DNA of 43,617 nt from a virus. How positions within the stretch are numbered: the stretch's first letter is position 1; the number at the start of each line of letters is the position of its first letter. The translations under genes were made by a program, and so were the position numbers. The stretch is from positions 1 through 43,617 of IMG/VR virus record IMGVR_UViG_3300025646_000090. The stretch is one strand, 5' to 3'. This document shows, one piece after another, positions 10,742 to 28,765 of this stretch. The notes beneath the pieces are model-generated. The model saw only the letters and a program-made list of their open reading frames with translations. It made no database searches and was not told where the DNA came from.

Positions 10742-13096
10742 GTGGCTTATATTTCTAACGGTTTAAAATTTGCTGCTATTACGATTGCCGGCACCGATTT
10801 TACTGATTCCTTTATTAGTTTTCAATGTGCAGATTCTAGTGCTGATCGTAGGGGTATTATTTCTACAAAAGGTAGTATAACTTTAACGTGGTCTTCCAAT
10901 TTTAATTTACTTAATGAGTACAGACGTAAAATTTTCTTACGTGGTAATTTAGTCACAATTGACTTACAAAAAGATGATGGGACTATTGTGCGCCACCCTC
11001 GGGGTTATTTATATGTAATTACCAATTCTTATAACCCAGAAAATGATACACTTACTATTGAAGTAGGGTGCAAATTAGCTCTATTAGAACTTAGTACTGA
11101 AAATGATGTATCTAGTTTATTACAGTATATATCAGTTCCTTTAAGCCCCGAATTGCAGACTTTTAATAATATATCGGCAGTCTTAGCTCTAGAAGGCAAA
11201 ATTTTATATCAAAATAAAAATGGTTCTTTAATACAACGCTCTTTTTTTATAAATTCTTTAGAATATGGTGCAGAACTTTCAGGTCAAAATGCGGCAAAAT
11301 GGGTTAGTGTCTTAGGAACTACGTTATTAGCGGCTTCTCCTATAAGTACCACAGAGCCTTTACCTGATGCTTTAGCTATAAATTATAGTTTACCTACTAC
11401 TGAAGGGGGTTCATTTGAAAATATTCAAATAGATGAAACTACTACAAATTATTACATACGATTCCCCATGAAAATTTACACCAGAATTCCACCATCTTCA
11501 GGAGTTGCTGGGTTAGGTATTTCTGGTGCTTTTGCTGTAGAAAATAATTATGGTTCTGGAGATTGTGGTAATAATCCTACGCAACCTGATGGTAATAATG
11601 GTTCAAATTTTGACTCTTGTACTGAAGGTTTTGTAGCTGAAGATTACACTGAATACTTATATGTTACTAAAACTAATACACAAATTAGTAGATATTATGG
11701 AGTAGGTGGGCAACTTTCTGAAGTTGAGCAAGTTTCATATGGGCCTGCATTAGAGGTTAATTCTCAATATTATACAGATAAATATGCATACTGCGTAGCT
11801 AGTTTTTCTAGTCGTTGTAATTTAACAGGTAGCTGCCGAGCCACTGGGGATAGAAATATTTTCCAAGGTAAATCTATAACAACATATACTTATAATGCAG
11901 ACGGCTCGGTTAAACAAACTGTTACTGAAAATTATCAGAATATAGGGTATGCCGCACAACCTACTGATTGGCGCTCTACCACTGAAGAAGATGCCGAAGG
12001 AACTTTAGTGAAACGACCTTGGGAAGGAGGAGCATTTGAAGCACGTATGGAAAGTGGGGAGTATTATTTAGATAGTAAGCAAATTGATGATTATGAGTAC
12101 TTTAATAATGGTACTCGACAGACTACTACTAGTTATGCAAGTGTTGCTTCTGAAGGGATCGGCATTAAAAGTTACCTCGATTTAGATGCAACACAAGGAA
12201 TTAAAACGGTACAAATTAGAACTAGTAGTACTTTAAGTATTAATCCCGATGCTCCTGAAAGGAATACAGGAGGGGCTCAATTAGAGACTACAGAGGAAGT
12301 ATCATTAACGCCTATTATTGCTAATACGTATATTACTCCGCCTTCAGAATCTCAAGAATTTGTAGTGCAGGAGCAGTTACCTATTGATGTTCTATCTTTT
12401 TATGAGAATGACCCTATACAAGTACAACGGGAGAAAATTTTACAGGTCGTTGAAAAATATAAACAATATTTAATTTTATGGATTAAAGGTAATACTTTTG
12501 GTTTAAATTTATCTGAAAATCTTAGGGAAGAAATTGTGAGTAATTGGGTACCAGGAGTACCTTTTTATTATTACGATCCTATAGCTAATGAAGCTTTCTT
12601 AGCTTGTTTAGATGCTGGTAGCTGGGCTATAGATAAAGATTCTTCAGTTGTAACTTTTAAGGCAGTATTTTTAGGTAATGTTGCTTCTTCGTTCACATAT
12701 TTTCCTGGTGATAATACTACAGGTAGTCATGTACGCCCAGTACATCCTGAGGATCCTGCAGGAACACCAGGAGTTCCTGGTATAAGCACTCCACCTAGTA
12801 TATTGGGTGCGAATATTCTAGAAAGTGGCAGCATAGTATTAGAAATTAAAATTGAAATAGGGCTACAAGCAGAATTAGCCTCAATAGATGAAGCTGAAAT
12901 TTCTATTATTGCCCGAATACAAATTATTGATTTAAATCCGAATGCTGAGCATACCATTTATTGTTTAACATCAGGGCAAATTGTACAACCTGGAGGTTTG
13001 ATAGCAGTTGAGGGTGCAGGAGGAATACCTATATCAGCAGACAACATACTTTTAACTGTAGGTGCGAATGTATTGCAAACGTCTTTATTTGGTTAA
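10742..13096 (+). CDS. Large tail tip/hub-like protein, 784 aa, GTG start
   Basis: The start is GTG at 10742; the overlapping ATG at 10740 gives only eight codons. Residues 1-120 are beta-rich (ITIAGTDFTDSFISFQ, then KGSITLTWSSNFNLLNEYRR) and resemble the N-terminal domain of phage tail hub proteins. The middle contains several Cys residues (CGNNPTQPDGNN..SCTEG, then CVASFSSRCNLTGSC) and many Tyr. A short collagen-like link (PAGTPGVPGIS) lies near residue 675, followed by a final beta domain. It probably forms the tail tip that holds the fibres. The exact fold is not recognised. Confidence 0.65.
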   Translation: MAYISNGLKFAAITIAGTDFTDSFISFQCADSSADRRGIISTKGSITLTWSSNFNLLNEYRRKIFLRGNLVTIDLQKDDGTIVRHPRGYLYVITNSYNPENDTLTIEVGCKLALLELSTENDVSSLLQYISVPLSPELQTFNNISAVLALEGKILYQNKNGSLIQRSFFINSLEYGAELSGQNAAKWVSVLGTTLLAASPISTTEPLPDALAINYSLPTTEGGSFENIQIDETTTNYYIRFPMKIYTRIPPSSGVAGLGISGAFAVENNYGSGDCGNNPTQPDGNNGSNFDSCTEGFVAEDYTEYLYVTKTNTQISRYYGVGGQLSEVEQVSYGPALEVNSQYYTDKYAYCVASFSSRCNLTGSCRATGDRNIFQGKSITTYTYNADGSVKQTVTENYQNIGYAAQPTDWRSTTEEDAEGTLVKRPWEGGAFEARMESGEYYLDSKQIDDYEYFNNGTRQTTTSYASVASEGIGIKSYLDLDATQGIKTVQIRTSSTLSINPDAPERNTGGAQLETTEEVSLTPIIANTYITPPSESQEFVVQEQLPIDVLSFYENDPIQVQREKILQVVEKYKQYLILWIKGNTFGLNLSENLREEIVSNWVPGVPFYYYDPIANEAFLACLDAGSWAIDKDSSVVTFKAVFLGNVASSFTYFPGDNTTGSHVRPVHPEDPAGTPGVPGISTPPSILGANILESGSIVLEIKIEIGLQAELASIDEAEISIIARIQIIDLNPNAEHTIYCLTSGQIVQPGGLIAVEGAGGIPISADNILLTVGANVLQTSLFG

Positions 13097-13139: not shown

Positions 13140-13856
13140 ATGTCTATTGCAGCTAAAATTAGCTCTACAGAGATTACGACGCAAATGACTAGTGCTTATG
13201 TTGATAAGTATTTTGAGGTAGCTTTAATTGATAGTTCTGGTACTACTTATACCCCAGGAACAACTGTAGATTCTACGTTTTTAACTGCCGAGGTTACAGA
13301 AGGCTCTGGAGGTTATTATCGTCAAATTATAGGGTATTCAAGTTCAGACCTTAGTAATTACACGGATTTAGGAGTTAGTTTAACAAGAAAAGCAGCTATT
13401 TTTGACCACGATAATAGTGCTACACCTATATATTTTACGCATGTTGTGCTACTTAGAGGATCTGGAAATATTTTAACTTTGGGCTCAACTGGGGCTACTC
13501 CTACTAACGCTGTGGATGGTGTATATAATGATTTACCTACTGCTACTTTTGGTAATGGTAAGCAAGCTTTAGTAGATTTAGTTGTATCCAATAGTGGTAC
13601 CGCATTTACAGTTTCTGTGGCATACCCCGGTTATGATTATGTAGTATCTGATCAATTAACCGTTTTGGAAGCGGATTTAATTACCGCAGGAGTTTGTAGC
13701 CAAGGAGATGGTAATTTAAATGTTTTTGTATCTAGCGTTACTGCAGGAAGTAATACAATCTATTCTGTAAGTAAAACAAGCTCTAGAGTAACTTTATCAG
13801 GAGGTAATCAAGCTGTTATTTATTTTGATATTAAACACTTTGGCTTCTATAATTAA
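13140..13856 (+). CDS. Tail tip/fibre-associated protein, 238 aa
   Basis: The N-terminus (SIAAKISSTEITTQMTSAYVD) is followed by beta-rich Ser/Thr/Gly sequence and ends with SGGNQAVIYFDIKHFGFYN. Low charge and many short strands fit a virion surface or fibre-adaptor protein. The next gene begins six bases after its stop, so the 13140-16620 genes appear to form one operon behind the 13104 promoter. No family is recognised. Confidence 0.6.
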   Translation: MSIAAKISSTEITTQMTSAYVDKYFEVALIDSSGTTYTPGTTVDSTFLTAEVTEGSGGYYRQIIGYSSSDLSNYTDLGVSLTRKAAIFDHDNSATPIYFTHVVLLRGSGNILTLGSTGATPTNAVDGVYNDLPTATFGNGKQALVDLVVSNSGTAFTVSVAYPGYDYVVSDQLTVLEADLITAGVCSQGDGNLNVFVSSVTAGSNTIYSVSKTSSRVTLSGGNQAVIYFDIKHFGFYN

Positions 13857-13861
13857 AAACT

Positions 13862-14122
13862 ATGACAGCCCTTCAAGACAGTTTAGCTTTATACTATGCA
13901 GAAAGAGAAATTTTTCTACAACAACCTAAAAACATTACAGATATGGGTGATTTTGAAGGCACTGTTAAAGCTTCTTGGGCACGTTTAAATTCCGATGGTA
14001 TCGGGGAAGTAGTATATAAAAATAAAACATACTTTGTGCGCCCTTTAGGTAAAAAATCTATACCTAAAAATACGCCAGTGGCTTTAACTTTTGCAAATGG
14101 TATTTACTTCGCTGATTGGTAG
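13862..14122 (+). CDS. Small tail-region protein, 86 aa
   Basis: A compact protein with a helical start (LQDSLALYYAEREIFLQQ) and a beta-rich SH3-like second half (VKASWARLNSDGIGEVVYKN, then KNTPVALTFANGIYFADW). The latter resembles a small beta-barrel that might adapt fibres to the tip, but this is inference. It sits in a tight operon with 5-base and 2-base gaps. Not recognised. Confidence 0.6.
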   Translation: MTALQDSLALYYAEREIFLQQPKNITDMGDFEGTVKASWARLNSDGIGEVVYKNKTYFVRPLGKKSIPKNTPVALTFANGIYFADW

Positions 14123-14124
14123 TT

Positions 14125-14388
14125 ATGGCACAGTTTAAATACGGCATTATAGATACTTCAGATACTTTAGATAATGTTGACGGTGCTGTAGAGTTTTTAA
14201 CTTTTAAACCTAGCCCAAAAGTCACTTATTCAGAATATCGACAACCTGGAACTTTGTGCGCCTATGTCGTAATACCTTGTATAAATTATCCTAATACTAC
14301 AAGTTTTTGTAATCCAAACCCTGACCTTACGTATGCTTTACTTTATGTTGTTGACTCAAGTGGCTACAAATTTACTCCTATAGAATAA
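14125..14388 (+). CDS. Small tail-region protein, 87 aa
   Basis: The start is taken at ATG 14125, two bases after the previous stop; a TTG nine bases earlier is the only alternative. The end ALLYVVDSSGYKFTPIE and the middle RQPGTLCAYVVIPCINY resemble LYVIDPSGQRV and KKPGSLYGTIYKLPGY in the next protein, so the two look like tandem paralogues. Four Cys are present in 87 residues. The function is unknown, presumably tail tip. Confidence 0.6.
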   Translation: MAQFKYGIIDTSDTLDNVDGAVEFLTFKPSPKVTYSEYRQPGTLCAYVVIPCINYPNTTSFCNPNPDLTYALLYVVDSSGYKFTPIE

Positions 14389-14389
14389 A

Positions 14390-14683
14390 ATGGCTATTTA
14401 TAATCTTCCTGAATTAGAGCATAACCCCATACCTCCGGGTACTATTAAATATAGGGTAACTCCTTTGGTAAAAACAGATGTGTCTTTCCAAACTGTAGGT
14501 CCTGGAAATTTTTTTATTACAGATTTTGGTAATGGCTTAAGAGGGCATGAAGTCTTAAATGATACTAAAAAACCTGGAAGTTTGTATGGAACAATATATA
14601 AACTACCCGGTTATGTAGGTTATGATGTAATTCGTCTATACGTAATAGATCCTAGCGGGCAAAGAGTTCTTATTTTACACTAA
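14390..14683 (+). CDS. Small tail-region protein, 97 aa, likely paralogue of the previous one
   Basis: The ATG follows the previous stop by one base (TAAAATG). It shares a [Q/K]-P-G-[T/S]-L core and an LYV[V/I]D.SG ending with the 14125 product, while the N-terminal half differs (NPIPPGTIKYRVTPLVKTD). This suggests a duplication with divergence. It lacks the Cys residues of its neighbour. Function is not known; the context is tail tip or fibre base. Confidence 0.6.
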   Translation: MAIYNLPELEHNPIPPGTIKYRVTPLVKTDVSFQTVGPGNFFITDFGNGLRGHEVLNDTKKPGSLYGTIYKLPGYVGYDVIRLYVIDPSGQRVLILH

Positions 14684-14684
14684 A

Positions 14685-15104
14685 ATGGCTGTAATTTCTC
14701 CTACATTTTCAGGCACTACAGGGCCTTATACAGTTGCCTCTAATATTAAAGTACTTAGTACTATAAAAGGGGGTCCTTATTATCCAACTAATATAATCGG
14801 AAGTACTCCTACGGTTACTTACAGTACTTTTGAGAAAGTAACAGGTGCTTCGGGAGGAGCTACGTATACTTATGAATTAAAAGTTTACCCTGAGTATGCT
14901 GGACAATTAATGTGGACTAATGTTATGACACCAGAAGCTACGGTAACTGGCGTCACACCTTACACTGCTCGTTTATTTTTAGCTGTACCAGCTGGTATTG
15001 ATGAAACGGATCCTGAAACTGGAAGAATTATTTTCTTAAAATGGGTACCAGTATTTTCATCTTTTGCTTTAGAAAATCCGTATCGTATAGTAGCTGCAAT
15101 TTAA
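14685..15104 (+). CDS. Small tail-region beta-rich protein, 139 aa
   Basis: It starts one base after the previous stop. The sequence is almost all short strands (TVTYSTFEKVTGASGGATYT, then ARLFLAVPAGIDETDPETGR) and ends FALENPYRIVAAI. It is part of the tight 13140-16620 operon. No family recognised. A virion surface protein near the fibre base is the likeliest role, by position only. Confidence 0.6.
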   Translation: MAVISPTFSGTTGPYTVASNIKVLSTIKGGPYYPTNIIGSTPTVTYSTFEKVTGASGGATYTYELKVYPEYAGQLMWTNVMTPEATVTGVTPYTARLFLAVPAGIDETDPETGRIIFLKWVPVFSSFALENPYRIVAAI

Positions 15105-15108
15105 TATC

Positions 15109-16620
15109 ATGGTTCTAGGAAATAGCCAAAATATAGTTCCTAAGCTGTTTAATAAGGTTCAACAAGAAATTTATAGGGCGCCTTTTGTCCCTATAGGTTC
15201 TATGGTTAGTCCTATATTTGCAGGGCTATCCTCTAGAGCAAAAGATAATACGGCTACAACATATTTAGCTACTACTAATACTAAGTGTTCAAGTTCGCAA
15301 GAATGTGGCGCTGGTTTTTATTGTAATAATGGGACTTGTGTTTCTTCGGGTGGAGGTAATACTTATTCTATAACATCTGGGATAGGCTGCTCTGTTGGAC
15401 CTAATGGAGTAGATTCGGGAACATATGGGGGAGGTGGTTCTAGATGTGGGTCCTCTTCTGGTACAGGGAATGGTTGTTATTCTGCTGGATGCGGTCAAGG
15501 ATCCCGTGTAAATGATGCGGCTTCTAGTGGGTCTAAGGGTAACCCCTGTGCCACTTGTTGCCGAGAAGATTCTTCTGGGAATGTACGATGCACATCAGGC
15601 AGCTGTCCACCTGAAGGTACCTGCTCTGAGTATTGTACAAATGAAAAGGAAAGTTACGGCTCTTATGGCGAAGGGTGTGACTCTAGAAATACTTGTACAG
15701 AATGCTCTAGTTGTAATGACGGGACTTGTGAAGAAAAATCAGATGCTGAAAGACCCTGCCATTGCAATAATGAATGTGGTGAAAGAGAAGACATAACTTG
15801 TTGTAATTTTAGAGATACTTGCAAAGGTCGTATAGAAGGTCTTTATTGTCACCCTACATATAGAACATGGTACCCTCGTTGTTATGACCCAGATGTCGAA
15901 TGCCTACCTGGAGGCAGTGCTTGTAGAGGATGTACCACGGGGAGTGGACCATCAGTACCTGATGGTTGCACATCTAAAGGATTTATTACAAGTGATTTAA
16001 CAGGAGAAACTATTTATATTTATGAGTGCTGTGAAGTTTTAAATGAAAAACCTGGGTGTGTTCAATGTGATGAAGATCAGAATTGTGGTGAGTGTCAATA
16101 TTGCGATAGAGGACTTTGCGTAAAATATAGTAATTGCCCAGGAAAATATGTACCTCCTCCAGTTTATGCTAGGGCTGTAGGTACTGTTTATGGTAATGGG
16201 TGGTATGGTCCTCCAGAACAATATAATTTTACAGGGTATTGGGTAAATGTCAGTAATGGGGAATCTATAGGAGCCGTTCGGGCACCAAATTTACTTCCTA
16301 GTTATCCTAATTATTGTGTTGAGTATTCTGAAGGAGGCCCTTGGGTAAGTACTAGAGTAATCACGCATCCCGGAGATTTTGGATGTAGTATTGAGTGTAA
16401 CAATTGTAATATGTTTGTTGTGTATGATGCAAATGGGAACTATCTCAATCCATATTCGGGTAAAGTAGGCTATCAAAAATATACAAATTTAAACGATCCT
16501 CCTGAAATAGTAGCTTGGGGGAATGTAAAATTTGAATTTAGTTACAACCAGCAGGATGTTTTTTATTCTAATTCTGGTAATGCGGATCCTAACTTTCCTT
16601 CTAATTTACCTCAAGCTTAA
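15109..16620 (+). CDS. Cysteine-rich virion-type protein, 503 aa, with three C-x5-C-x5-C-x4-C repeats
   Basis: About 45 Cys are present, most of them between residues 60 and 343. Three near-identical repeats, C-x5-C-x5-C-x4-C, start at residues 60, 190 and 320, about 130 residues apart, each ending in C-[N/D]-x-G-x-C. Between them are other paired Cys (CATCC, CHCN, CCNF, ECCE). Residues 1-59 have no Cys and may anchor the protein to the tail. The C-terminal 150 residues are Tyr/Asn-rich and beta-like with a four-Cys cluster. The spacing recalls small disulphide modules of extracellular animal proteins; metal binding is an alternative. No signal peptide is seen. It closes the tail tip operon. 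Shadow frames at 15289-15498 and 15512-15796 were left out. Confidence 0.7.
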   Translation: MVLGNSQNIVPKLFNKVQQEIYRAPFVPIGSMVSPIFAGLSSRAKDNTATTYLATTNTKCSSSQECGAGFYCNNGTCVSSGGGNTYSITSGIGCSVGPNGVDSGTYGGGGSRCGSSSGTGNGCYSAGCGQGSRVNDAASSGSKGNPCATCCREDSSGNVRCTSGSCPPEGTCSEYCTNEKESYGSYGEGCDSRNTCTECSSCNDGTCEEKSDAERPCHCNNECGEREDITCCNFRDTCKGRIEGLYCHPTYRTWYPRCYDPDVECLPGGSACRGCTTGSGPSVPDGCTSKGFITSDLTGETIYIYECCEVLNEKPGCVQCDEDQNCGECQYCDRGLCVKYSNCPGKYVPPPVYARAVGTVYGNGWYGPPEQYNFTGYWVNVSNGESIGAVRAPNLLPSYPNYCVEYSEGGPWVSTRVITHPGDFGCSIECNNCNMFVVYDANGNYLNPYSGKVGYQKYTNLNDPPEIVAWGNVKFEFSYNQQDVFYSNSGNADPNFPSNLPQA

Positions 16621-16659: not shown

Positions 16660-16968
16660 ATGGCTGCTGAATTACGCCGAATTAGATTAAAATACAGTGA
16701 GGACCCAGAAAGTACTTTATTAAGTGATATTTCTAGTACTGGCCCTGATACTATTTTACCTGGAGAATTAGTTGTAGGTATTGATGCAGGATCTGAAGCT
16801 ATTTATACTGTAAATAATAATGGAGATGCTGTAGTTATCCCTTCGATAGCTTCTAGAACTAATAATATAACCGGAGAAACTCGTATTAAAAATATTGTCT
16901 CTTTAACTGCAGCTGAGTACACAGCTTTAACTGTTAAAGATGCGGCTACTTTGTATATTGTGTTGTGA
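16660..16968 (+). CDS. Short fibre-related protein, 102 aa
   Basis: The core LPGELVVGIDAGSEAIYTVN has the same plan as the N-terminal domain of the 17222 and 18509 fibres (LAGELGVESDTNKVKIGDG, EPGEFAISSDTNYARVGDG). The end VSLTAAEYTALTVKDAATLY matches a frequent C-terminal fibre motif (LTxAEYxAL...DxxTLYIV). It is therefore probably a small fibre or fibre-base protein. Its stop is one base before the next ATG. Confidence 0.65.
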   Translation: MAAELRRIRLKYSEDPESTLLSDISSTGPDTILPGELVVGIDAGSEAIYTVNNNGDAVVIPSIASRTNNITGETRIKNIVSLTAAEYTALTVKDAATLYIVL

Positions 16969-16969
16969 T

Positions 16970-17191
16970 ATGACAACTGCTATACAGTTAGGTACCAATT
17001 CAGCTTACAAAATTTTTTTTGGCTCTAGAGAAGCTGATGTGATTTTTTTAGGTAGTAACCTTCTATATGCTAGAAATCATATTGTGTATACAGCTAAAGA
17101 TTCTAGTACTTTAATCTTAGATTTTATTCAAGCTGGGAGTGCTAGCAACCCGGCTACAGATATTCTTAGAGCAGCTGGGGCCTTGACTTAG
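16970..17191 (+). CDS. Small tail/fibre-region protein, 73 aa
   Basis: The start is taken at ATG 16970, one base after the previous stop, rather than at the in-frame ATG at 16940 inside the previous gene. Residues IQLGTNSAYKIFFGSREADV then IFLGSNLLYAR suggest a small beta domain of the kind found in phage neck or fibre proteins (LGxxxV..I.LGSNxVW). It is part of the 16660 operon. The function is unknown. Confidence 0.6.
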   Translation: MTTAIQLGTNSAYKIFFGSREADVIFLGSNLLYARNHIVYTAKDSSTLILDFIQAGSASNPATDILRAAGALT

Positions 17192-17192
17192 T

Positions 17193-17202
17193 AGGTATAC
17201 TA
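17193..17202 (+). promoter_or_regulatory. Extended -10 phage promoter motif
   Basis: AGGTATACTA, 19 bases before the ATG at 17222. Confidence 0.7.
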
Positions 17203-17221
17203 CACTAGCGTTACCTTCATA

Positions 17222-18502
17222 ATGACTGTTATAGATGCTCGGCAGCAACAAAGATATGATACAGCAGCGAATTGGGCTACTGTAAATCCTTTATTACTAG
17301 CTGGAGAACTTGGGGTAGAAAGCGATACTAATAAAGTTAAAATAGGTGATGGTAACTCACTTTGGAACAGTCTTTTATATGTAGAAGTAGAACCTATTAG
17401 TATTAATGATATAGCTGATGTTAATATTTCCAGTACTCCTAGCGAAGGCACCACATTAATATATAATAGTAACACAAATGAATGGGTTCCTGGTCCTGTT
17501 ATTGGTTATTTAGACCCTAGTACAGATACTTATTATGACGATGTTACATTACTTTTGAAGTTTAATGGAGTAGCTGGGACTAGTAATTTTAATGACTCTA
17601 GTAGTTTTAATACGCCTTTAACTATACAAGGAACTCCTATACATTCTACAACACAAGTTAAATACGGTTATACTTCAGGATTTTTTAACAATACTATAGC
17701 TACGGCTCAAGGTTTACGAGTACTTGCTGCTAATAATCAAGGATTTCCTTTCGGGTCTGCTGGTTTAACTATAGACACATGGGTATATGTAGAAGCTACT
17801 AGTTCCACTAATATGCAGTTTTTCTACTCTATTCCTTTTTCAATATATTTTGTTAAGAGTACCTCTACTACATATTATCCAGTAGTTACTTGGAGTTATT
17901 CAGGCTCAGCTCCTTCAGCAAGTTTATCCCCTCCTACGGCTTTTAGAAACAGCATTCCAGTTAATACTTGGGTTTATTTATCGGCATGTAAAGATAGTAC
18001 TTCTGTGCGCGTTTATATTAATGGCGTTAAAATAGCTGAAGATACTGCAAATGGTAGCTTACCTATATATTCATCTAGTCCGCCTATTATGTATCTGGGT
18101 ACTAGTACGACAACTAATACTGTCACTTCTGTAGGATTTAAAGGATATATAGATGACTTTAGAATAACAAAAGCAGTAGCTAGATATACTACAGATTTTA
18201 CCCCTCCTTTAGTAGAAGTTCCTAGTAGTTCAGTTACTAGTCCTACATTAATTTATAGCATAAAAGAACATTCAGACGTAAATATAACTGGAATTCCTTC
18301 AAATGGGCAAACTTTAGTTTGGGATGGAGCCACCTCACAATTTATTCTTGGTGATATTACAGGTAAAAAGATAACTAATACAGCGGCCCCAACTAGTGCT
18401 ACTGATACAGGTTCAACAGGAGAGATCAGGTATGATAGTTCTTATGTGTACGTATGCACGGCCACTAATACGTGGGTACGTAGCCCTTTAAATACTTGGT
18501 GA
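17222..18502 (+). CDS. Tail fibre with LamG-like lectin domain, 426 aa
   Basis: It is modular. Residues 1-55 form a phage fibre N-terminal domain (LAGELGVESDTNKVKIGDG). A link with SINDIADVNISSTPSEGTTL and NEWVPGPV follows. Residues about 100-325 look like a concanavalin/LamG domain (VTLLLKFNGVAG, FNDSSSFN, YIDDFRITKAVARYTTDFTP). A second DVN..P.NGQTLVWD repeat and a 40-residue end (GEIRYDSSYVYVCTATNTW, then VRSPLNTW) close the protein. The end recurs in the 18509 and 26256 products. LamG-like domains bind glycans, so host surface recognition is likely. The next fibre gene begins six bases later. Confidence 0.8.
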   Translation: MTVIDARQQQRYDTAANWATVNPLLLAGELGVESDTNKVKIGDGNSLWNSLLYVEVEPISINDIADVNISSTPSEGTTLIYNSNTNEWVPGPVIGYLDPSTDTYYDDVTLLLKFNGVAGTSNFNDSSSFNTPLTIQGTPIHSTTQVKYGYTSGFFNNTIATAQGLRVLAANNQGFPFGSAGLTIDTWVYVEATSSTNMQFFYSIPFSIYFVKSTSTTYYPVVTWSYSGSAPSASLSPPTAFRNSIPVNTWVYLSACKDSTSVRVYINGVKIAEDTANGSLPIYSSSPPIMYLGTSTTTNTVTSVGFKGYIDDFRITKAVARYTTDFTPPLVEVPSSSVTSPTLIYSIKEHSDVNITGIPSNGQTLVWDGATSQFILGDITGKKITNTAAPTSATDTGSTGEIRYDSSYVYVCTATNTWVRSPLNTW

Positions 18503-18508
18503 GATAAT

Positions 18509-19078
18509 ATGACTACTACTTCCGCTAGATTTAAACAAAAAATAGATACTTATAGTGTATGGCAAAATAGTACATTAGTTCTTGAGCCTGGTGAATTTGC
18601 GATTAGTTCTGATACTAATTATGCAAGAGTTGGTGATGGTAATCAGACTTGGAGTAATTTAACACCTTTAAATATAAAGCCTCATTCTTTAGAAAGATAC
18701 CAAGATGTTGATTTTCAAAATCCTGTAGTTACTGCGTGGGTACCTATTGTCTATATGGGACCTGTATGGCAATGGCGTAGTGGTCCACCTATTGTATACA
18801 TTGATCCTGTTACAAGTGCTTACAATTATAGTATTGATGTTTTTAATGATGTAGATATTAGTACTACTTCTTTAGTTTCTGGTGATATCTTAAGTTGGGA
18901 TGTAGTGAATACACAATTTATAAATAAAGAAGTAGTTTTAGAAAAAATAACAACTGTGGCACCTCCTAATTTAAGCACAGATACAGGCGAAGAAGGTGAA
19001 ATAAGATTTGGAGCGGGTTATTTGTATATTTGTATAGCTATAAATACCTGGAAAAGAGCTGCTTTAAGTACTTGGTAG
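18509..19078 (+). CDS. Short tail fibre, 189 aa
   Basis: It shares the N-terminal domain (EPGEFAISSDTNYARVGDGN) and the C-terminal cassette (GEIRFGAGYLYICIAINTW, KRAALSTW) with the 17222 fibre but lacks the LamG domain. The middle holds FNDVDISTTSLVSGDILSWD, a variant of the same DVD..L.WD repeat. It may form heterotrimers with, or act as an adaptor for, its longer paralogue. No promoter motif was found, so it is probably cotranscribed with 17222. The promoter of the next gene overlaps its stop codon. Confidence 0.75.
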   Translation: MTTTSARFKQKIDTYSVWQNSTLVLEPGEFAISSDTNYARVGDGNQTWSNLTPLNIKPHSLERYQDVDFQNPVVTAWVPIVYMGPVWQWRSGPPIVYIDPVTSAYNYSIDVFNDVDISTTSLVSGDILSWDVVNTQFINKEVVLEKITTVAPPNLSTDTGEEGEIRFGAGYLYICIAINTWKRAALSTW

Positions 19079-19101: not shown

Positions 19102-19491
19102 ATGGCCTCTTTAAGATTAACCGCTGAGGATTTATCTTGTAATGGAATAGCTCCTATAGGCCCAGTATGCCCTTGGCCTAAACCAGAAACTTGGCCAGTG
19201 GAAAATACAAAAAAACAGGTACCTCAGTTTAAAGCCATTAAACATGATACTGTGGTCAAAGCTAGTGCAGCAAAAATGGCCTCTGGTTTATTAAAAAATG
19301 TTGGATACTTAGCATCAAATGGTAAAGTTAATTCTGAGATTAGGCAAGAGCGGTATGATATTTGCTTAGAATGTCCTCATTTTATTGAAGATTCTAAACG
19401 GTGCTCTGAATGTGGGTGTTTCATGGAAGCAAAAACATGGATAGCGGCTGAGCCTAGTTTATTATGTCCTAAAAATAAATGGCCTAGGTAA
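19102..19491 (+). CDS. Zinc-ribbon phage protein, 129 aa
   Basis: The C-terminal third has RYDICLECPHFIEDSKRCSE, then CGCFMEAKTWIAAEPSLLCP. The spacing C-x2-C ... C-x2-C-x-C ... C, ending CPKNKWPR, is a zinc-binding signature found in a family of small phage proteins (DUF6171-like, named from memory). The first 75 residues are Pro/Lys-rich and variable. It is placed between fibre and scaffold genes. Function is not established for the family. Confidence 0.75.
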   Translation: MASLRLTAEDLSCNGIAPIGPVCPWPKPETWPVENTKKQVPQFKAIKHDTVVKASAAKMASGLLKNVGYLASNGKVNSEIRQERYDICLECPHFIEDSKRCSECGCFMEAKTWIAAEPSLLCPKNKWPR

Positions 19492-19530: not shown

Positions 19531-20253
19531 ATGTCTGAGGAATCTATTCAAACTCCTGTGGCCGAAGTTGAGACTACTGTTACGCCCGAGAAGGGCAAAG
19601 TCTTTACTGAAGGTGAAGTTGAAAATCTCATGAAAGCCCTGAAGGCCGAACGTGAGACTCGTAAAAATTATGAAAAAGAAGCTAAAGAACGCGCCGCTCA
19701 ACTTGAGCGTTTTGCAAATATTAATCCTGATGAATATGCTAAATTGCAGGAGGAAGTGGCACGGGCTGCTCAATTACAAGCCCAGTATGGTGAAGCGAAA
19801 GAAGCTATTGAATTGAAGTACTCTAAGCAAGCGGAAGAGGCTGCTACTCGTGCTGAGGCTGCTGAGCGTCGGATGCAGGAATTTCAGAAGCGGTATGCTC
19901 TAGAGAAAGTTTTCTTTGCAGCTGGTGGTCGGACTGATGCGGCTGATGGCGTATCGTTCTTTGATATGCTGGCTGATCAGTTGGGTGGTCGTTTCCGTCA
20001 AGAATCTGATGGCTCTCTTACTGTAGTGGATCTGCAGGGCGATCCAGTGTTGGATAAAGAATCTGGTAAGCGCATTTCGCCAGAAGAGTTTGTCTCCAGT
20101 TTTAAGCATCATCCTATCTACGGTGCTTTCTTTAAAGGAACCAAGGGTTCTGGTGCTGGCCTCGGCTACGGTGGAACTGATGCTAATGGTATGCCTACTG
20201 AAGACCTGGATAGTCTGGATCCTGATCAATTATTCCAGCGAGCTTTTAGTTAA
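19531..20253 (+). CDS. Capsid scaffolding protein, 240 aa
   Basis: An acidic, Ala/Glu-rich protein directly before the major capsid gene. Residues about 20-125 are a long coiled coil (EGEVENLMKALKAERETRKN and onward). The C-terminal part has ISPEEFVSSFKHHPIYGAFF and a Gly-rich link, which would contact the coat. Size and order match siphophage scaffolds. The GTG at 19528 would add one residue and fits the usual promoter spacing better, so the start is uncertain by one codon. A terminator follows, with the capsid gene under separate control. Confidence 0.85.
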   Translation: MSEESIQTPVAEVETTVTPEKGKVFTEGEVENLMKALKAERETRKNYEKEAKERAAQLERFANINPDEYAKLQEEVARAAQLQAQYGEAKEAIELKYSKQAEEAATRAEAAERRMQEFQKRYALEKVFFAAGGRTDAADGVSFFDMLADQLGGRFRQESDGSLTVVDLQGDPVLDKESGKRISPEEFVSSFKHHPIYGAFFKGTKGSGAGLGYGGTDANGMPTEDLDSLDPDQLFQRAFS

Positions 20254-20278
20254 TAGTAACCCCTAGTTTACCAAAATG

Positions 20279-23219: not shown

Positions 23220-24299
23220 ATGACTGCTACTATTGCAACACGTCCTAGTTTTTCTATTTGGGAACAGTTTTGTCAATGGGTGACTTCCACCAACAACCGC
23301 CTGTATGTGGGATGGTTCGGTGTGCTGATGATCCCCACCCTGCTGGCTGCCACCATTTGCTTCATTGTCGCCTTTGTGGCTGCTCCTCCCGTCGATATTG
23401 ACGGTATCCGTGAACCTGTTGCCGGTGCATTGCTTTATGGAAACAATCTCATCTCTGGAGCAGTTGTCCCCTCCAGTAACGCAATCGGACTACATTTCTA
23501 TCCAATTTGGGAAGCTAATAGCCTTGACGAATGGCTCTATAACGGGGGCCCGTACCAATTGGTCGTCTTCCACTTCCTTATTGGCGTCTTCTCTTACATG
23601 GGACGCGAATGGGAACTTAGCTATCGATTAGGGATGCGGCCTTGGATCTGCGTCGCGTATTCGGCTCCTGTGGCTGCGGCAACTGCAGTATTCCTTGTTT
23701 ATCCTTTTGGTCAAGGTTCTTTTTCTGATGGTATGCCTCTGGGTATCAGCGGCACCTTCAACTACATGCTGGTGTTCCAGGCTGAGCACAACATTCTGAT
23801 GCACCCCTTCCACATGCTGGGTGTGGCCGGTGTGTTCGGCGGCAGCCTGTTCTCCGCCATGCACGGTTCGCTGGTGACCTCCAGCCTGGTGCGTGAAACT
23901 ACTGAAATTATTAGCCAAAATTATGGATATAAATTCGGCCAAGAAGAGGAAACCTATAATATTGTAGCTGCTCATGGTTACTTTGGTCGTCTTATTTTTC
24001 AATACGCTAGCTTTAACAATTCTCGTAGTCTCCACTTTTTCCTTGCAGCATGGCCTGTTGTGGGTATTTGGTTCGCTGCTCTTGGCGTATCTACTATGGC
24101 GTTTAATTTAAATGGATTTAATTTTAATCAGTCTCTGCTGGATACTCAAAATAATGTAATTAATACCTGGGCAGATGTGCTGAATCGGGCTAATTTAGGT
24201 TTTGAGGTGATGCACGAGCGCAATGCTCATAATTTCCCTCTGGACCTTGCAGCTACGGAATTTACTCCCGTGGCTTTAAAAGCTCCGGTTATTGGTTGA
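23220..24299 (+). CDS. psbA: Photosystem II reaction centre protein D1, 359 aa
   Basis: Full-length D1. It aligns without gaps to the cyanobacterial protein in the first 130 residues ([33 protein letters not shown]) and keeps the plastoquinone and manganese-ligand regions ([31 protein letters not shown]). Residue 130 is Glu (MGREWELS), as in the high-light D1:2 form rather than the Gln of D1:1. The C-terminal processing site after LDLA is present. In infected cells phage D1 replaces turned-over host D1 so that photosynthesis continues. Codon use is patchy: 23280-23390 and 23740-23905 are C/G-ending, the rest T/A-ending, which suggests recombination. It has a long leader and a strong terminator, so it is expressed alone. 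Confidence 0.99.
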
Positions 24300-26255: not shown

Positions 26256-27650
26256 ATGTACTTTTCTAGTGCTAAAGAGATCAAAAAAGCTCTGCAAGCA
26301 GACATTTTAATTAGCGAATTAGTTGATAATATTGAAATTACTCGCGATGCTGATATTAAATTTTTACTAGGGTCTTCGATATTTATATCTGAGATTCCGT
26401 ATTTGGATGGTGTAGAGGCTGTTTGGACAATCAGGGTGTATGGTGTTTTGGATACTGATTTAGAAGTATTAAAAGCCGCTATAAAAGATAAGATTGGTGG
26501 TACATGGTTTGAGTCTACGTTAAAAATAATACAATTTGCCACGCCTGAGTTAATTGATGCCGTAGAGGAGCGCCAGCAGCTGTACCGACAACGGGAAGAG
26601 ATCGGCAGCGCCATCAAGTACGCGACTAGCCTTAAGAGCGGCTCTGACGGGGCTAGGGGGCCTGCTGGAGCACCTGGGCCTATGGGGCTTCCAGGGCCTG
26701 CTGGAAAGGATGGTAGGGATGGCCGTGACGGTCGTGATGGTCTGGATATGGTGGCTACTGAGGCCAAGTTAGAAGATTTGCAGGATGTTAATTTTGATGA
26801 GCTAGAATTAACTAAAGGTCAAGTACTTACGTTTGATGGTACTGGATGGACAAATCGTTATATCCCTCAAGTTTTGCATAATCGTTCTGGTGTTCCTAGT
26901 GATATCAATCTTGATAGTATTACTTTTAATACTGAAGTAGAGCAGTATGATCCTGCCCAAGGGAATATACATTGGGAGATAGATGAGAGTACTCTGGTTC
27001 TAGGCCTTGATGAGGCTGTTCATATGCACCTGGGTCAGGATACTTTTAGTCTTGTGCGTAATGACACTGTTTCAGTTATTCCAAAAGGCACAGCCGTAAT
27101 GTTTACGGGTACTTTAGGGGCAAGTGGTCGAATTAAAGTGGCTCCTATGGTAGCTGACGGTACATACCCTGGTTACGTGTTTTTTGGTGTGACAGCTGAG
27201 GCAATTAATCCCTCTGAAGATGGATTTGCTATTAGCTATGGTAAGCTTAAAAAAATTGACACTAGTATTTATCCTCAGGGTTCTATTTTATGGTGTAATC
27301 CAAGTGTGCCAGGTGGTTTTACTATTACAGAACCAAATGCTCCTAATTTAAAGTTGCCGGTGGCTGCTGTTATTTCTAGTAAAAATAATGGCACTTTAAT
27401 GGTTCGTTGGAGTACTGGTTCGCGCTTAGCAGATTTGCATGATGTGCAAACTAGTAGCCCGCATAATGCTGATGTTATTAAATGGTCTAGTATCACAAAT
27501 CGCTGGGAGCACACTTCTGTAGCTACTAATAATCCTCCGGCTACTGCAACCTCCCCTGGAGCTGCTGGAGAGATTCGGTATGATACAAATTATATTTATA
27601 CATGCATTAGTGATAATGTTTGGAAACGCGCTCCTTTATCCACATGGTAA
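26256..27650 (+). CDS. Collagen-like tail or head fibre, 464 aa
   Basis: The N-terminal domain of about 125 residues (YFSSAKEIKKALQADILISE) is unlike the other fibres. A Gly-X-Y stretch covers about residues 129-163 (GARGPAGAPGPMGLPGPAGK, then DGRDGRDGRDG). It is followed by a DLQDVN..GQVLTFDGTGW repeat, a beta domain (STLVLGLDEAVHMHLGQDTF) and the C-terminal cassette GEIRYDTNYIYTCISDNVW, KRAPLSTW shared with the 17222 and 18509 fibres. The beta domain resembles a trimeric fibre middle domain of other phages. Codons around 26560-26720 are C/G-richer than the rest, which suggests the collagen link was acquired separately. Confidence 0.8.
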   Translation: MYFSSAKEIKKALQADILISELVDNIEITRDADIKFLLGSSIFISEIPYLDGVEAVWTIRVYGVLDTDLEVLKAAIKDKIGGTWFESTLKIIQFATPELIDAVEERQQLYRQREEIGSAIKYATSLKSGSDGARGPAGAPGPMGLPGPAGKDGRDGRDGRDGLDMVATEAKLEDLQDVNFDELELTKGQVLTFDGTGWTNRYIPQVLHNRSGVPSDINLDSITFNTEVEQYDPAQGNIHWEIDESTLVLGLDEAVHMHLGQDTFSLVRNDTVSVIPKGTAVMFTGTLGASGRIKVAPMVADGTYPGYVFFGVTAEAINPSEDGFAISYGKLKKIDTSIYPQGSILWCNPSVPGGFTITEPNAPNLKLPVAAVISSKNNGTLMVRWSTGSRLADLHDVQTSSPHNADVIKWSSITNRWEHTSVATNNPPATATSPGAAGEIRYDTNYIYTCISDNVWKRAPLSTW

Positions 27651-27652
27651 TT

Positions 27653-28765
27653 ATGAAAACTTCTTGGGAAAAGATCTACGGCTATGCTAAAAAAGCGGGA
27701 GCTAAGTTTCCTGAATGTGTAGCCGCGCAATGGGCATGCGAATCAGGTTTCGGTGCATATACTAGTGGTAAAAATAATTTTTTTGGTATTAAAGGAACTC
27801 CAGGTACTACAGTTAGCACACAAGAATGGGTAAATGGTAAATTTATTACTATTCAAGATACTTTTAAAGATTACTATAATGCAGAGGATTGTGTCATAGA
27901 TTTAGTCAATAAATGGTATAAAAATTACAAAGGTTACGAAGGAGTTAACCGTGCTAAAACTCGGGAAGAGTGCGCTTTTCTTTTGAAGCAGGAAGGTTAT
28001 GCTACTGATCCTGGGTATTCTAAGAAGTTAGTTGATTTGATGAACAGGTACCACACAATGCCCATTAGTAACCCGGCTACATCTCCTGGCTTTTTACGTC
28101 GGGCTGCTGAACATTACAAATTTTATCCTCACCAAGATGCTGCTTTTGATTACCTAGAGGCTAATAGCGATCCTAAAGTGTTCGCTAAATTCAAAGAATT
28201 GTTTAGCCCCCCTAAAGTCGGTGTTTTTAAATTCCCATTGGATGTGCCTTACTTCTATCAACGAGATAGCAAGGAAGGACATGGCGAGCGTATGTGTTTT
28301 AGCTCAGCAATGGCGATGGCTTTGGACTACCTAGATCCTGAGGCTATTGCAGGTGATGATGACTGGTACTTGAATGAAGTATTTAAACGTGGTGATACTG
28401 TATCGTCTGTTGCACAAATTTCTACGGCGCATGCCTTAGGATTCACTAGTGCAGAGTTCCATACGGACGGCTGCGAAAAAGATTTGATCACATTATTAGA
28501 TCGTCAGGTTCCGGTGCCCATCGGTATTCTGCATAAAGGCCCGATCAGCTCTCCTACTGGAGGTGGTCACTGGGTTACTTTAATTGGATACGACCAGACA
28601 CACTTCTGGGTTCATGACCCTTATGGTGAATTAGATCTTATTAACGGTGGTTATCCTAAGCGTGGTAGCACTGATGGTAAGGCTGTAAGGTATACTCGAC
28701 AAAACTTATTAAAACGCTGGTTAATACATTCTAGCTCTGACGGCTGGTACGTATCTGTAATCTAG
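27653..28765 (+). CDS. Bifunctional lysin: glucosaminidase plus C39-like peptidase, 370 aa
   Basis: The start is ATG 27653, just after the previous stop. Residues 1-145 are a glucosaminidase (LYZ2/FlgJ-type) domain: QWACESGFG with Glu30, then GKNNFFGIKG. Residues about 190-370 are a papain-like C39-family peptidase: Cys215 (ERMCFSSAMAMAL), His306 (GGGHWVTLIGYD) and Asp322 (HDPYGE). It would cut both glycan and peptide bonds of peptidoglycan at the end of infection. There is no signal peptide, so a holin or other export path is needed. It closes the + strand block. An in-frame ATG at 27620 inside the fibre gene was rejected. Confidence 0.85.
   Translation: MKTSWEKIYGYAKKAGAKFPECVAAQWACESGFGAYTSGKNNFFGIKGTPGTTVSTQEWVNGKFITIQDTFKDYYNAEDCVIDLVNKWYKNYKGYEGVNRAKTREECAFLLKQEGYATDPGYSKKLVDLMNRYHTMPISNPATSPGFLRRAAEHYKFYPHQDAAFDYLEANSDPKVFAKFKELFSPPKVGVFKFPLDVPYFYQRDSKEGHGERMCFSSAMAMALDYLDPEAIAGDDDWYLNEVFKRGDTVSSVAQISTAHALGFTSAEFHTDGCEKDLITLLDRQVPVPIGILHKGPISSPTGGGHWVTLIGYDQTHFWVHDPYGELDLINGGYPKRGSTDGKAVRYTRQNLLKRWLIHSSSDGWYVSVI

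Follow-up and report, generated by a model that had tools for sequence, protein, structure and literature searches.

The DNA studied here is the IMG/VR virus record IMGVR_UViG_3300025646_000090, a window of 43,617 bases hereafter called the record, in which the genes for the major tail protein and the tape measure are followed by two small genes, the hub gene, five further small genes, a cysteine-rich gene, fibre genes and then the capsid genes. The hub gene (10742..13096, + strand) encodes a tail-hub-like protein homologous to P-SS2 gp079 and S-CBS2 gp024 (tblastn E-values of 1e-120 to 1e-55), which was found at 80 IMG/VR loci and used as a synteny marker. Five small genes (13140..15104, + strand), whose equivalents in P-SS2 (ORFs 080-083) were detected in virions, lead from the hub to the cysteine-rich gene (15109..16620, + strand), the start of which lies four bases past the stop codon of the preceding gene. 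A first-pass annotation of this DNA had the cysteine-rich gene closing the tail operon, but the + strand tail genes run on (16660..19078) with a Phage_tail_C protein from 16660, a lectin (Laminin_G_3) and Mtd_N fibre from 17222 and a second Mtd_N fibre from 18509. Past the cysteine-rich gene, the first + strand terminator-like sites found are at 19935, within a gene, and at 20278, in an intergenic stretch.

The tape measure and hub proteins of the record have their nearest counterparts in S-CBS2 and S-CRES1-3 and, for the hub, in P-SS2 also. A cyanobacterial host is nearly certain, given these affinities and the presence of psbA. The virus is a cyanosiphovirus of the P-SS2/S-CBS2 group. The psbA gene itself (photosystem II D1; 23220-24299, + strand) shares 77.6% nucleotide identity with that of cyanopodovirus S-RIP2, and no psbA family match was found in P-SS2, S-CBS2, S-CRES1 or S-CRES3. 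Elsewhere in the record, a single ORF with Glucosaminidase and C39-like peptidase domains (27620-28765, + strand) may encode a lysis or cell-wall enzyme, a weak cellulase-family (GH5) match below the cut-off (E 1.6e-4) lies upstream of the tail genes (1546-2442, - strand), and a small protein of eight cysteines (phrog_13558, DUF6171-like; 19102-19491, + strand) is placed between the fibre and capsid genes.

The product of the cysteine-rich gene has 503 residues and 45 cysteines, exactly as first described, coordinates included. Cysteine thus makes up 8.9% of this protein, compared to 1.0% of the remaining predicted proteome of the record and mostly 0-1% of the adjoining structural proteins. 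The three C-x5-C-x5-C-x4-C units reported earlier are indeed found at residues 60, 190 and 320, and three copies are reached by none of 20,000 composition shuffles of the protein and by 10 of 20,000 permutations of its cysteine gaps. Units 2 and 3 are in fact five-cysteine units of the form C-x5-C-x2-C-x2-C-x4-C, and unit 1 has four cysteines. The regular 130-residue repeat that had been read into their spacing is exact in this protein but is not conserved, with the two distances ranging over 99-289 and 107-255 residues in 41 homologues and agreeing to within one residue in only 2 of the 41; the exact spacing is, on this comparison, a coincidence.

The protein can be divided into several parts, all encoded on the + strand. 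The N-terminal segment (residues 1-56; 15109..15276) is free of cysteine, is predicted by AlphaFold at low confidence to contain two short helices, and possibly serves as an anchor; over 60% of homologues retain its residues A49 and L53. Cysteine unit 1 follows (residues 60-77; 15286..15339; C-x5-C-x5-C-x4-C), with a pLDDT of about 94 and all four cysteines kept in 98% of 44 homologues, and is joined by a Gly/Ser-rich linker (residues 82-144; 15352..15540), in which the homologue alignment and the model place conserved C94, C113, C123 and C128, to a cysteine core of small hairpin modules (residues 145-345; 15541..16143). This core, covered by the 36-member alignment A5, is modelled by AlphaFold at a mean pLDDT of 70 with its best parts above 90, and it harbours unit 2 (residues 190-207; 15676..15729; pLDDT ~95), whose five cysteines include invariant C190, C196 and C199 and, in 95% of the 44 homologues, C202 and C207, together with the five cysteines of unit 3 (residues 320-337; 16066..16119; pLDDT ~90), of which C320, C326 and C337 are kept in 95-98%. 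The C-terminal extension (residues 346-503; 16144..16617) is optional and variable in the family, poorly modelled, and returns only weak Pfam matches.

Structure prediction does show a repeated element: the three units are modelled confidently and alike, each as a hairpin with a short helical turn, and their blocks reach pLDDT values of about 88-97. The model of the whole protein is poor (mean pLDDT 55 at full length and 70 for the core alone), and confidence is mostly low outside the units. Fold searches with the full model and the core gave only weak matches that resemble noise, the best Foldseek E-values being 0.37 in the PDB and 0.056 in BFVD, and VIA-align reached at best a Z of 2.9 over residues 269-311 only; since the models are poor, this absence of fold matches is not taken as a sign of a new fold. 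No convincing whole-protein relative was found in PHROGs (none at E <= 1), solved structures or NCBIfam. The likeness to extracellular modules that had been suggested is borne out to a degree by weak matches to two repeat models. The 503-residue protein scores 15.5 bits against Pfam DUF7107 (PF23416) over residues 55-78, below the gathering cut-off of 24.6, which is passed by two relatives, namely the protein at locus L095 (57.9 bits, six stretches) and, just, P-SS2 gp084 (24.9 bits). Against NCBIfam TIGR04201 (Myxo_Cys_RPT) it scores 14.5 bits over residues 60-77, and the genome scan gave 19.4 bits, each below the cut-off of 25. Both models match the four-cysteine unit and are small repeat models as opposed to a whole-protein family. 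As for EGF, EB and similar animal modules, no Pfam match was found in 44 family members at E 0.05, and the Foldseek and VIA-align matches of the low-confidence model are weak.

Named counterparts occupy the equivalent place in S-CRES1 (gp85), S-CRES2 (gp91), S-CRES3 (gp92) and S-CBS2 (gp029), showing about 29-30% identity to the 503-residue protein and sharing most of its cysteines. The succession of hub, small genes, cysteine-rich gene and fibre or structural genes holds in S-CBS2, S-CRES1-3 and P-SS2. Among the 80 IMG/VR loci retrieved with the hub as bait, 22 have less than 3 kb of downstream sequence and are uninformative; an ORF with at least 20 cysteines (6.3-14.5% cysteine) lies downstream of the hub in 56 of the remaining 58. 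Of the other two, L096 has a protein of 1,393 residues and 52 cysteines at the cysteine-rich gene's place, and L081 offers only 3.4 kb downstream, too short to reach the gene at the distance seen in L082 and L080, two loci with equally good hub matches. Every informative locus (57/57) therefore carries a cysteine-rich protein, with 22-270 cysteines each. The viruses of this group have hosts among ocean and estuary cyanobacteria, and the protein is present in nearly every one of them. A scan of cellular genomes with the hub alignment (the cysteine-rich protein itself not being the query) returned no relatives. A neighbour match in cyanomyovirus S-SZBM1 was rejected, its neighbouring proteins not being cysteine-rich.

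Ten cysteines are invariant in the alignment of 44 homologues, including C172, C176, C190, C196, C199, C217, C219 and C223 of the core pattern, and over a dozen more are shared by at least 90% of them. Relatives with 92% identity retain 53 of 53 cysteines, and at 69% identity the figure is 42 of 42; the cysteines outlast other residues. The gene is under purifying selection, with a dN/dS of 0.19 between S-CRES1 and S-CRES2.

The counterpart in P-SS2 is gp084 (ORF 084), a protein of 2,612 residues and 282 cysteines that, like the 503-residue protein, is placed after the hub (079) and small tip genes (080-083) and contains repeated four- and five-cysteine units, but is five times longer, with about 25 four-cysteine units and an SMC-like match at its C-terminus. 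Its product was found in P-SS2 virions by mass spectrometry with 43 peptides on average, under the name 'Unknown structural protein, also in metagenomes', as were the products of ORFs 076-083 and 086-093 (Sullivan et al. 2009; PMC2784084, Table 2). The main text of that paper holds no mention of cysteine, and the cysteine content of gp084 goes unremarked there. The proposal that the protein belongs to the virion thus gains support through this counterpart; virion presence is documented for the P-SS2 protein only, and for the 503-residue protein it would follow from synteny.

The compact-core profile scores against P-SS2 gp084 and the P-SS2-type giants no higher than against shuffles in which the cysteines were held in place, and the link to the compact proteins therefore consists of position, shared cysteine units and bridging members. 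It is conceivable, if rather improbable, that the compact-phage proteins are instead non-virion tail-assembly factors or secreted proteins that share the position of gp084 by accident, as would be compatible with the core homology not being demonstrable and with S-CBS2 gp029 being annotated as hypothetical only, in the midst of neighbours called structural. Such a reading is at odds with the bridging members, namely L086 and L089, which combine the core with several tandem cysteine units, and L053, which the hub tree places as sister of the P-SS2 group and which aligns over the core cysteines. Moreover, an assembly factor would need neither an expandable cysteine stalk nor terminal cadherin and Ig repeats.

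The members of the family differ in the number of their units and in their C-termini. The four-cysteine unit occurs in 1 to about 26 copies in tandem arrays, with about 7 in L086, 15 in L095 and about 25 in each of L085, L088 and P-SS2, and the hub tree calls for no fewer than three changes to explain the state of five or more units. In some relatives, such as L095 and L086, the extra tandem units sit between unit 1 and the core. Of 44 homologues, 14 have no C-terminal extension or one of under 25 residues, and where the extension is present it takes different forms: the L096 protein (L096:7322-11503) joins a cysteine-rich N-terminal part to repeats of cadherin-like and Ig type (PF17803, PF17963), L037 ends in an S74-like match, and the SMC-like match of P-SS2 gp084 is of coiled-coil type. 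By eye, a C-terminal DTSGS motif in L086 (L086:14032-17841) resembles a von Willebrand A metal site, with no match in Pfam, and L083 shares the stretch that precedes it.

The earlier suggestion that the cysteines form disulphides is supported by their being gained and lost in pairs across homologues. From the N-terminus to C207 the cysteine count is even in 41 of 42 homologues (16, 18, 20, 22, 24, 26 or 28), the sole exception having 33, and up to C337 it is even in 22 of 28 members with a C-terminal extension, a parity bias not seen for other residues; these counts are not independent trials, as the members are related and the gain of a whole four-cysteine unit keeps parity. The presence and absence of individual cysteines co-vary most strongly for C151/C161 (r 0.93), C231/C247 (0.87) and C202/C207 (1.0, from few losses), and less so for C272/C308 (r 0.75) and C329/C343 (r 0.74). 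AlphaFold places the first three of these pairs on facing hairpin positions (E149-153/E159-163, E229-236/E242-249 and E200-203/E206-209, respectively), an agreement that is not independent of the co-variation because both used the same alignment.

Metal binding is a rival reading of the cysteines, and the tail-tip protein gpL of phage lambda is known to carry an iron-sulphur cluster. A metal-stabilised tail component, its cysteines binding zinc or iron-sulphur clusters in place of forming disulphides, would suit a 503-residue protein that has to fold in the reducing cytoplasm, and an even cysteine count is also compatible with four-cysteine sites. The C-x2-C-x2-C-x4-C of units 2 and 3 resembles the C-x2-C-x2-C-x3-C of ferredoxins, but the spacing of the last cysteine varies widely among homologues, from x4 to more than x10, and this variability disfavours a ferredoxin-like cluster. 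Unit 1 and the tandem units, for their part, are without the CxxC pairs usual for zinc, and the loss of cysteines in specific pairs facing across hairpins fits two-partner bonds better than four-ligand sites. Metal binding is considered unlikely, and we infer that disulphides are present in the mature virion.

The favoured explanation, which is held with somewhat better than even confidence, is that the protein is a disulphide-stabilised tail-tip anchor or stalk bearing a variable distal part. The cysteine-free N-terminal segment would probably dock to the hub and to the small tip proteins encoded just upstream, and the row of small disulphide-closed hairpin units would form a rigid, protease-resistant body or stalk, the length of which each lineage could set by adding or losing units. 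The optional, fast-changing C-terminal part would project outward and probably take part in host contact. The cysteines would remain reduced during particle assembly in the cell and pair once the virion reaches oxygenated water on release. A place in the adsorption device, at the tail tip and in contact with the host, is suggested by the neighbouring fibre genes and by the variability of the ends. Against this reading, no part of the compact members that lack a C-terminal extension is an obvious distal receptor-binding element.

Total cysteine counts are even in 10 of 13 members that stop after unit 3 and odd in 22 of 28 members with an extension; in the latter, at least one cysteine is therefore not paired within its chain, and the leftover cysteine might link chains. 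Bonds of this kind to other chains would also suit a redox latch like that proposed for the baseplate disulphides of Agrobacterium phage Milano: formed after lysis, the bonds would hold the tip locked until reduction at the host surface allowed the DNA to leave. In Milano, tail and baseplate disulphides must be reduced for contraction in vitro (PMC10811340). The Milano bonds link subunits of several proteins, whereas here the cysteines are concentrated in one. The tube, the tape measure and most neighbours of that one protein have 0-1% cysteine, most of its own cysteines appear paired within the chain, and siphovirus tails have no contraction to lock, all of which makes such a latch a remote prospect. 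Equally doubtful is a more ambitious form of the idea, in which the tandem disulphide mini-modules make up an extensible tail stalk, convergent with animal and myxobacterial extracellular proteins; once oxidised after lysis, this stalk would serve as a lock or sensor that responds to redox state where the virus meets its oxygen-producing host.

Milano and 7-7-1, both Agrobacterium phages, are precedents for virions stabilised by abundant disulphides, the baseplate included, but they have contractile tails and bonds spread over many proteins, with 2.6% cysteine in four capsid proteins of 7-7-1 (PMC12796354), and the available portions of the two accounts describe no comparable cysteine-unit protein (PMC10811340; PMC12796354). 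The family bears a functional likeness to the tail fibres and adhesins of siphoviruses in its fibre-gene neighbourhood, its variable C-termini and the cadherin/Ig or S74-like ends of some members, and differs from them in its 9-14% cysteine and in that no sequence relationship to any named fibre family could be detected. In the open-access literature on cysteine-rich proteins in cyanophages, siphoviruses and virions, a scope outside which the S-CBS2 genome paper falls, the family is not described; a "cysteine-rich" paper on Loki phage proved irrelevant, as it concerns a DnaJ-like domain. The protein is best regarded as a new family that probably performs a known job by means of an unusual architecture.

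For a tailed phage, a cysteine content of 9-14% in a virion protein seems highly unusual; in the precedent of Milano and 7-7-1, fewer cysteines are spread over many proteins. Essentially all members of a widespread cyanophage group retain the present protein. Should the disulphide reading hold, it shows how oxidation after lysis can be exploited by a phage whose assembly takes place in a reducing cytoplasm, and it provides an expandable stalk module and, in the variable C-termini, a clear test of the parts that determine host range in marine phages. A second cysteine-rich ORF, which seems to be missing in the record, lies further downstream in many relatives and encodes a protein of about 200-250 residues with 11-19 cysteines, as exemplified by L011:8866-9537 and L014:8470-9174, with similar ORFs in L021, L036, L061 and L092.
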